Under the pieces are notes generated by a model, which ran no database searches, was not told where the DNA came from, and saw nothing but the letters and a program-made list of their open reading frames with translations. The position numbers were made by a program, and so were the translations under genes. From contig NZ_DS022294.1 in the NCBI RefSeq assembly GCF_000153765.1, positions 1,254,520 through 1,299,996 on the forward strand: 45,477 nt of DNA, read 5' to 3'. Each line of letters begins with the position of its first letter. Positions within the stretch are counted from its first letter, which is position 1. Shown here piece after piece: positions 5,097-6,488 of this stretch. Origin of the DNA: Mariprofundus ferrooxydans PV-1. GTDB taxonomy: Bacteria; Pseudomonadota; Zetaproteobacteria; Mariprofundales; Mariprofundaceae.

Positions 5097-5996
5097 TCAG
5101 CCGCCCCCAAGCGGATGCGAGTGATTTACCAGGTCGTGCATGCGGGCGCGGGATACATGTGTGTAAATCTCTGTGGTTGTAACGTGAGCGTGCCCCAGTA
5201 GCATTTGGACAGCCCGCAAATCAGCCCCGTGATTCAGCAAATGCGTGGCAAAAGCATGGCGTAGCGTATGGGGTGACGGCAGCGGCATGATTCCCGCCAT
5301 GGTGGCATAGCGCTTGATGCGTAACCAGAAATTCTGGCGGGTCATGGCGTGTCCGCCGCGGCCGGCAAACAGGTACGGACTCGCCGGTTTGGCGGGGCGT
5401 AGCAGCAGCCATTGTTGCAGCCATTGGCCAGCCTCTTCGCCAAACGGAATCAACCTCTCCTTGTCGCCCTTGCCGATGACCCGCAGTAGTCCGGCATCCA
5501 TCTCCACCTGTCCGCGCGTCAGGCTGACCAGTTCGCTGACGCGTACGCCGGTGGCATAGAGCAATTCCAGCATGCAGCGGTCACGCAGTCCCACTGGATC
5601 CTCTGTTTCGGGTGCCGCCAGCAGTCGTTCGACATCGTGCTCGCTCATCATTTTCGGTAACGGTCGGCTTTTACGCAGTTTCGGCAGATGACGGGCCGGG
5701 TGATCTTCACGCAGGTTCTGATCCTGCAGCCAGGTGAACCAGGTGGAGAGAGCGCTGCGTCGACGCTGGATGGTTGTCGGCTTCATGCCGTCCCGGCCCA
5801 GTTTGGCCAGGTAGTCCAGTATTGCCTTGCCATCGGCCTGCATCAGGCTGGTGTGGTGATCGACAAAATAGCTGTCGGCATGCAGCAGGTCGCTGCGGTA
5901 GGAGCTGGTCGTCTGCGGCGACCAGCCGCGCAGCATGGCCAGCCGCTGTAGCAGGCCGGTAATCATCTCTTCGTTTTCCGTAACGGGGGTGGACAT
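5097..5996 (-). CDS. xerD: Tyrosine recombinase XerD
   Basis: The protein has 299 residues, the usual Xer length. An N-terminal SAM-like core-binding domain covers about 1-100 and the catalytic domain about 120-290. Catalytic residues are visible: R in 'LYATGVRVSEL', K in 'VIGKGDKERLIP', H-x-x-R in 'HTLRHAFATHLLNHG', H in 'LLGHAHVTTTEIYTHV' and the tyrosine nucleophile in 'IYTHV'. 'HTLRHAFATHLLNHGADLR' is typical of XerD rather than XerC. With XerC it resolves chromosome dimers at dif; no dif site was recognised in this window. The start is ATG 5996. Upstream is the repeat array and tRNA-Leu on the same strand, but nothing suggests an integrative element here, because XerD is a housekeeping recombinase. 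Confidence 0.9.
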   Translation of the reverse strand: MSTPVTENEEMITGLLQRLAMLRGWSPQTTSSYRSDLLHADSYFVDHHTSLMQADGKAILDYLAKLGRDGMKPTTIQRRRSALSTWFTWLQDQNLREDHPARHLPKLRKSRPLPKMMSEHDVERLLAAPETEDPVGLRDRCMLELLYATGVRVSELVSLTRGQVEMDAGLLRVIGKGDKERLIPFGEEAGQWLQQWLLLRPAKPASPYLFAGRGGHAMTRQNFWLRIKRYATMAGIMPLPSPHTLRHAFATHLLNHGADLRAVQMLLGHAHVTTTEIYTHVSRARMHDLVNHSHPLGGG

Positions 5997-6065
5997 GGCG
6001 CCATCTTAGTGGAGTGCATGCGCTGGTGTCATCCGGCTTGTGCTGCAGCAGGGGAGCTTCCGTCG

Positions 6066-6397
6066 CGAAAGAGGGGGAGGGTGTGACGTTACGTTGTTAT
6101 ATATGAGAAAACAGGAGGCCTGATGCGAAAGAGGTGATGACATTAAGTCACAGCTGGGGTGAGTAAGAGAGTCAAAGGCTAAAGGCCTAACGCAAAAAGG
6201 AGAGTGACATTAAGTCACGGTATTATGAGAGAAAACAGAAGCCTAACGCGAAAGAGGGAGCTGACATTAAGTCACGGTAAGGAGATAAAGGCAGCAGGCC
6301 TAACGCAAAAAGGGAGTGACATGAAGTCACGGTTTTTGAGAGAAAACAGAGGCCTAACGCGAAAGAGCCACGTGACATTAAGTCACGTGGCTCTTTC
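6066..6397. repeat. Tandem array of six ~54-67 bp units with a GTGAC-N5-GTCAC palindrome
   Basis: On the plus strand each unit reads roughly GCCTAACGCGAAAGAG, a variable 2-5 bases, TGACATTAAGTCA, then a GAGAGAAAACAGAG-like stretch. The palindromic cores are at 6084-6096 (degenerate), 6138-6150, 6205-6217, 6262-6274, 6317-6329 and 6373-6385, giving spacings of 54, 67, 57, 55 and 56 bases. The last core lies in a perfect hairpin at the 3' end of tRNA-Leu. Read on the minus strand, each unit is a short GTGAC/GTCAC stem followed by a pyrimidine run such as CTCCCTTTTTGCG, which resembles a weak intrinsic terminator. An 83-codon frame across part of the array is only a by-product of the repeat. No gene is visible between 6000 and 6400. 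Confidence 0.85.
6361..6397 (-). terminator. Perfect 16-bp hairpin 3' of tRNA-Leu (probable terminator)
   Basis: Stem arms at 6361-6376 and 6382-6397 are exact reverse complements, with loop ATTAA on the plus strand (6377-6381). It starts four bases beyond the CCA end of the minus-strand tRNA-Leu. The downstream arm on the minus strand ends CTCTTTCGCGTT, so the T-run is short. It is the last unit of the tandem array, with the stem lengthened by GAAAGAGCCAC-type flanks. Termination or tRNA 3' processing is the likely role. Confidence 0.7.
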
Positions 6398-6401
6398 TTG
6401 T

Positions 6402-6488
6402 TGGTACCGAGGACTGGAATCGAACCAGCACTTCCAAAAGGAAACTAGCACCTGAAGCTAGCGCGTCTACCAATTCCGCCACCTCGGC
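6402..6488 (-). tRNA. tRNA-Leu (anticodon CAG)
   Basis: On the minus strand this is an 87-base class II tRNA starting GCCGAGGTGGCGGAATTGG and ending CCTCGGTACCA, with CCA encoded. The acceptor stem GCCGAGG/CCTCGGT pairs with a terminal G-U. The anticodon stem is CTAGC/GCTAG around loop TTCAGGT, giving anticodon CAG. A long variable arm (TTTCCTTTTGGAAG) and the T-loop GGTTCGATTCC are present. It reads codon CUG. It lies opposite rnr, and its promoter must lie within the roughly 56 bases up to the rnr start. A hairpin follows it directly. Confidence 0.95.

Follow-up and report, generated by a model that had tools for sequence, protein, structure and literature searches.

A Mariprofundaceae family of hairpin elements with coupled feet and freely varying stems at tRNA and protein-gene ends

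The tandem array that lies directly 3' of tRNA-Leu(CAG) in a Mariprofundus chromosome probably belongs, on balance, to a REP-like family of Mariprofundaceae palindromes with new tags, whose stems are kept perfect and whose first hairpin (H1) appears to have been co-opted here as a terminator. The array is neither unique nor tRNA-specific. The hairpin family was previously unnoticed, and the literature searched held no account of Mariprofundus palindromes or of comparable tRNA-linked arrays. Over dozens of natural sites, the family separates what is fixed (coupled feet, perfect stem) from what is free (the stem sequence). It makes two questions testable: by what means small palindromic elements select and retain their sites, and whether a template switch alters both arms of a stem in one step or the change passes via GU intermediates. 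The 3' ends of Mariprofundaceae tRNA genes are hot spots for hairpin arrays and genomic islands alike.

The array behind tRNA-Leu(CAG) and its relatives

The window is a 45,477-nucleotide stretch of a Mariprofundus (Zetaproteobacteria) chromosome (G000:C4:1254520-1299996; G000 is the own genome). On its minus strand, tRNA-Leu(CAG) is followed by six units and then by xerC (Table 1), and the terminal A of the tRNA is the first base of the H1 5' foot. No Rfam family besides tRNA-Leu(CAG) was found in the 45-kb window. An earlier note on this DNA had described six units of 54–67 bp directly 3' of the tRNA. This layout was borne out by Tandem Repeats Finder (6183-6387, with period 56 at score 256 and period 111 at score 347), by unit registration, and by the positions of the conserved blocks, with GCGTTAGG at 6360, 6306, 6249, and 6193 (minus strand), its degenerate form GCATCAGG at 6126, and GCGACGG at 6066. 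The array is by far the best tandem repeat of the window, as scores elsewhere did not exceed 45. The claim that all six units repeat GTGAC-N5-GTCAC was slightly generous: the palindrome is exact in three units (6204, 6316, 6372), has one mismatch in two (6137, 6261), and is degenerate in the last. The unit next to the tRNA is indeed the perfect 16-bp hairpin that had been described, GAAAGAGCCACGTGAC-TTAAT-GTCACGTGGCTCTTTC. Folding of the minus-strand RNA, proposed in the same note, yielded −89.5 kcal/mol (z = −6.0 against shuffles), to which H1 contributed most.

Table 1. Features of the array locus (window positions) and a candidate transposase gene elsewhere in the own genome
Feature	Position	Strand	Basis or remark
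tRNA-Leu(CAG)	6402..6488	-	ARAGORN; Rfam RF00005, 53.3 bits
H1: foot AACAA 6402-6398, 16-bp stem, loop TTAAT, foot GCGTTAG 6360-6354	6354..6402	-	Perfect pairing, G009 orthologue, covariation
Internal unit 2: core GTGACTTCATGTCAC, 3' arm, GCGTTAG; outer 5' arm lost	6300..6353	-	Repeat registration, unit alignment
Internal unit 3	6243..6299	-	The G009 Leu(GAG) array (L009) has the same core, 3' arm, and 3' foot
Internal unit 4	6187..6242	-	Unit alignment
Internal unit 5, degenerate, 3' foot GCATCAG	6120..6186	-	Unit alignment
Internal unit 6, degenerate, 3' foot GCGACGG	6060..6119	-	Unit alignment
XerC-like tyrosine recombinase gene	5097..5996	-	Pfam PF00589, 5e-51; syntenic neighbour at the Leu(CAG) locus
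Y1 transposase, RAYT type, DnaA-like C-terminal HTH	G000:C3:568506-569474 (L293 2007-2975)		Near an lpxK-like gene

When the repeat was searched against the own genome and related genomes, as had also been suggested, it matched three further own-genome loci (E down to 1e-38) and 20 of the 22 other Mariprofundus genomes; the array is therefore not a product of chance. None of 18 genomes outside the genus gave a match in the BLAST search. In the own genome, three units stand directly 3' of tRNA-Leu(TAA) (L003), and secG is followed by six or more near-identical units of 60 bp (L002). A lone hairpin comes after an elongator tRNA-Met of which this locus has only a 3' fragment, beside a phage-type integrase (L004). 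The units behind secG adjoin a 138-base N run (L002 1331-1468, G000:C4:620698-620835), which lies between secG and the largest array. This run probably hides tRNA-Leu(GAG) and its H1, because no Leu(GAG) gene was otherwise found in the own genome. Among the 43 tRNA genes found there, only the Leu(CAG), Leu(TAA), probable Leu(GAG), and Met sites carry H1, and many of the remaining genes end in ordinary A-stem-U terminators.

The pattern of a tRNA end followed by AACAA, a hairpin, and GCGTTAG was present in 18 of 23 Mariprofundus genomes and in three other Mariprofundaceae, and it was found in none of 320 proteobacteria outside the class. The control, in which the pattern was read backward, gave zero in all genomes. 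H1 always begins at the CCA end, with the form CCA-ACAA-(14–17 bp stem)-GCGTTAG, and its hosts are tRNA-Leu (CAG, TAA, GAG, or CAA) or elongator tRNA-Met. Among the genomes searched, the hairpin family is confined to Mariprofundaceae. A viral origin was considered and rejected: pattern scans of IMG/VR gave 4 and 13 matches, which had no hairpin or tRNA context and look like chance. A CRISPR array was also ruled out, with spacers that are homologous to each other and repeats that diverge.

Several further features were observed around these tRNA ends. The intact elongator tRNA-Met (L134, G000:C3:852219) lies ~69 kb away from its 3' fragment, which is accompanied by H1 and the phage-type integrase (L004, G000:C3:782834), and a 69-kb island is probably inserted in this tRNA gene. 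Similar att fragments precede H1 in many relatives. At island ends, the tRNA-Leu 3' fragments of L010, L013, L014, L032, and L034 read CGTACCA and not CGGTACCA, with one G missing. In G012:C20 (L219/L021), a CRISPR array begins right after the second hairpin unit 3' of tRNA-Leu(TAA); its repeat, TTTCTAAGCTGCCTATGCGGCAGTGAAC, is presumably type I-F-like. In G018:C19 (L030/L216), tRNA-Leu(CAA) is found at the xerC locus, where other species have tRNA-Leu(CAG), which suggests exchange between tRNA-Leu loci.

Feet and stems

The 55 first hairpins fall into three unrelated stem classes: 38 of class A (core GTGAC-TTAAT-GTCAC; L208 belongs here and not to class B), 8 of class B (AATATT-RAT-AATATT), and 9 of class C (GCCATGGGTGTGGC). 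They are 43–52 nt long and comprise 51 distinct 5' arms, and 48 of the 55 stems have no mismatch. Apart from one variable base each, the feet A.CAA and GCG.TAG are near invariant over this set; the 3' foot was built into the search pattern, and the set of hairpins found by BLAST also shows it nearly always.

Despite their variable sequences, the arms remain complementary. In class A (18 orthologues and paralogues), 99.1% of the cells were paired, with 64 changes on both sides versus a single one-sided change. No shuffle attained this value, and slid controls were ~40% paired. Class C stems at dinG were 96.9% paired (27 two-sided versus 3 one-sided changes). When an RNA stem is under selection, it usually changes by way of GU pairs, and GU or one-sided states are almost absent from the class A stems. 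This scarcity therefore points to upkeep at the DNA rather than the RNA level. The stems are probably kept perfectly paired as DNA, for example via template switching, which produces multi-base compensatory changes (PMC8794818). In the favoured reading, the stem sequence itself is unimportant, and the complementarity of the arms is what is maintained. Within the feet, an AA/GC mismatch is conserved that template switching alone does not explain, so that an extra sequence constraint is needed. Covariation alone is no proof of a functional RNA.

The end of the dinG-like helicase gene represents a clean natural experiment, because one arm of its hairpin is coding and the other non-coding. The last codons of the gene (E-Q-D-x-stop) form the 5' arm, and wherever codon x differs, the 3' arm differs to match. 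The own genome also has a hairpin at this gene end, and a perfect hairpin was absent in eleven relatives with a readable dinG-like end. An apparent hairpin remnant was seen at the dinG-like end of G015. Tandem arrays at dinG comprise five units in G001 and about five in G009. At the own-genome pntB, whose product we take to be PntB from reading its sequence, a perfect class C hairpin is followed by four more units spaced 46–55 bp (a five-unit array). In all of these arrays, the first unit is a whole hairpin, and the outer 5' arm is missing from most of the units behind it.

The two feet are coupled, as A(A)CAA...GCG(T)TAG or A(G)CAA...GCG(A)TAG. When 1.6 Mb of own-genome sequence (53% of the total) was scanned for the pattern A(N)CAA-hairpin-GCG(N)TAG, 13 foot-tagged hairpins were found, compared to 0–3 (mean about 1) for controls with shuffled feet. 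Eleven of them carry the pair AGCAA/GCGATAG, one carries AACAA/GCGTTAG, and one is mixed; the remaining thirteen combinations did not occur. At the orthologous dinG site, the foot pair switches between AACAA/GCGTTAG (4 species) and AGCAA/GCGATAG (5 species), although the species do not count as independent cases. The variable bases that face each other are A-T or G-A. Watson-Crick pairing is therefore no explanation for the coupling, and a protein that reads both feet would fit. Several of the foot-tagged hairpins of the own genome are short, intergenic, and REP-like. An identical 30-mer, AGCAAGCGGCGCTGTCCCGCCGCGCGATAG, is present at own-genome positions C3:429201 and C4:467568 and also in G016, and thus is a dispersed repeat. 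Near an apparent 5S rRNA end, three short AGCAAG...CGCGATAG hairpins stand in a row (G000:C4:467519-467685, L351).

Termination, array turnover, and rival explanations

T-runs of three or more were found in 36 of the 38 class A first hairpins, including H1 of the window, and class A loci mostly lack another terminator within 160 nt downstream. H1 therefore probably terminates tRNA-Leu(CAG). Classes B and C have no U-tract (the longest T-run is mostly 2), which makes the terminator function secondary and specific to class A. A separate canonical terminator follows 4–44 nt further on at each of the five class B Leu(CAG) loci, and at the Leu(CAG) site of G007 (L276) the class B hairpin has apparently decayed while the downstream terminator is intact. 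These loci argue that H1 is an added element and that, in class A, this element appears to have assumed the role of terminator. The earlier idea of serial terminators thus survives for H1 but not for the internal units, which have decayed and lack the outer 5' arm. That every unit stops transcription or guides tRNA 3' maturation is unlikely: the T-rich class A arms, the rarity of a further terminator, and the RNA fold (z = −6) would agree with it, but same-foot hairpins without a U-tract stand before separate canonical terminators, at protein-gene ends, or between genes, and the near absence of GU or one-sided states also speaks against it. Compared to the orthologous locus in G009, H1 is identical at 49 of 49 positions, whereas identity is only 79%, with many gaps, in the internal units and about 80% (79.7%) in xerC. 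This makes the internal units look like copies that are decaying with age, with H1 as the part retained. In L021 and L224, the second unit consists of the core and 3' arm of the first hairpin without its outer 5' arm, which matches the expectation of unequal exchange between cores. Decay in relatives, which the earlier note would have taken as a sign of neutral duplication, was seen for the internal units, but H1 is kept genus-wide with compensatory change. Neutral tandem duplication of a tRNA terminator, spread among tRNA-Leu genes by gene conversion, would account for internal units that diverge about as much as the neighbouring gene, and for the make-up of the second units, and the Leu genes do resemble each other. 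It is nevertheless highly unlikely, as it gives no reason why the feet recur at dinG, at pntB, and between genes, why two unrelated classes of stem are found behind the same tRNA genes, why the first hairpin is conserved, or why tRNA-Met has one too. That the units form a phased array of sites at which a protein would bind GTGAC-N5-GTCAC or GCGTTAG in DNA or RNA is scarcely credible: the motif does recur at near-regular 54–67 bp, but the core palindrome differs by class (GTGAC..., AATATT..., GCCATGGG...) and decays in internal units, the spacing varies, and single-unit loci are common.

We also weighed an integron-derived origin, in which the hairpins are attC-like sites (single, or in integrase-less clusters), AACAA/GCGTTAG are the R''/R' boxes, and the short units are empty mini-cassettes. 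Seven of the 23 Mariprofundus genomes encode an IntI (TIGR02249) that passes the cut-off, two typical attC sites in G012 (L247) share AACAA...GCGTTAG, AAC/GTT is the attC R-box consensus (PMC2727003), and short pieces ending in GCGTTAG lie downstream in L213, L214, and L217. However, the own genome has no IntI above cut-off, and the presence of IntI is not correlated with that of the hairpins. The AAC/GTT triplets of the R''/R' boxes are present in the AACAA/GCGTTAG members and absent from the AGCAA/GCGATAG members. Because most own-genome members proved to be GCGATAG, without the GTT triplet, attC was dropped as the leading model, and we now regard it as quite unlikely. Furthermore, attC sites have extrahelical bases, L boxes, and a length of 57–142 nt (PMC2727003), whereas our 43–52 nt hairpins showed neither extrahelical bases nor L boxes, and units of 44–67 bp hold no ORF and thus no ORF cassettes. 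A strict finder detected no attC near the IntI genes of seven relatives. The two typical sites of G012 (G012:C29, 5922 and 6503 on the minus strand) are associated with small ORF cassettes, and IntI is on another contig. A different possibility, which is doubtful, is a new single-strand hairpin recombination or transposition site, whose enzyme would read only the coupled feet, a guide-like A(A/G)CAA on the 5' side and GCG(T/A)TAG on the 3' side, around any perfect stem. It would be targeted to tRNA-Leu, tRNA-Met, and a few protein genes at their 3' ends and build tandem arrays there. XerC was rejected as the cognate recombinase because other arrays have no xerC.

Candidate machinery and comparison with known systems

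According to the favoured reading as a family of REP-like elements, each element is a DNA hairpin between two conserved, coupled feet, placed intergenically or exactly at the 3' end of a gene (tRNA-Leu, elongator tRNA-Met, dinG-like, pntB). Its arms would be held complementary at the DNA level through template-switch correction of the palindrome, and/or a single-strand hairpin enzyme would recognise the folded strand together with the feet. Tandem copies would probably be produced when hairpin cores undergo unequal exchange or slip against each other, and would then decay, until one perfect first hairpin is left beside the gene. In this lineage, the 3' arm of the hairpin next to the tRNA is moreover pyrimidine/T-rich, and this hairpin would most likely serve as the tRNA terminator. 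The elements may be mobile, and a Y1/RAYT-type transposase would be the first suspect as the mobilising enzyme. RAYT-like Y1 genes are present in 20 of 23 Mariprofundus genomes, including the own genome (Table 1). In G016, two foot-tagged hairpins lie ~250–390 bp downstream of a RAYT-like gene. This was the only supportive case among 15 RAYT loci checked for flanking hairpins, and no hairpin lies immediately beside the own-genome RAYT gene. In REP systems, by comparison, the repeats flank their cognate RAYT gene. IS200/IS605 enzymes pick their cleavage sites via guide bases 5' of the palindrome (PMC8266576), and these guide bases offer a reasonable model for the coupled feet.

The earlier note knew of no described class that fits the array, and none does so neatly. 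The E. coli tyrT/rtT region likewise has tandem repeats directly 3' of a tRNA gene. The rtT repeats include the tRNA 3' end; in contrast, no Mariprofundaceae unit has tRNA sequence, and the same arrays also stand behind protein genes. The suggestion of a tRNA-derived small RNA of the rtT kind is therefore unsupported. Bidirectional intrinsic tRNA terminators resemble the class A H1 with its A-rich 5' side, T-rich 3' side, and GC stem, but the family has fixed feet with the conserved AA/GC mismatch, and two of its classes have no U-tract. With attC sites and CALIN clusters, the family shares AACAA...GCGTT outer boxes, a variable-stem hairpin, and tandem units ending in GCGTTAGGC, and integrons are present in the genus.

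The closest likeness is to the REP/RAYT REPtrons. In both cases, the elements are short palindromes whose conserved end motifs stand outside the stem; the copies are dispersed, mostly intergenic or downstream of genes, with some clusters, and RAYT-type Y1 HUH transposases are present in Mariprofundus genomes. In IS200/IS605 and in one REPtron, a foot beside the palindrome selects the cleavage site (PMC8266576), which is comparable to the coupled feet of the Mariprofundaceae hairpins. REP superfamilies are defined by an unpaired GTAG or CGTC tag at one end of the palindrome (PMC3733652), and A(A/G)CAA and GCG(T/A)TAG match neither tag; the family is therefore described as REP-like but not filed as a REP member. 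Its copy number is low (13 strict matches in the 53% of the genome scanned), whereas REP copy number is usually >100 per genome (PMC2817692). In contrast to REP, the units of this family are in direct repeat and not in opposite-orientation pairs (BIME), and their stems are hypervariable yet perfectly paired and are anchored at tRNA-Leu, tRNA-Met, and specific gene ends.
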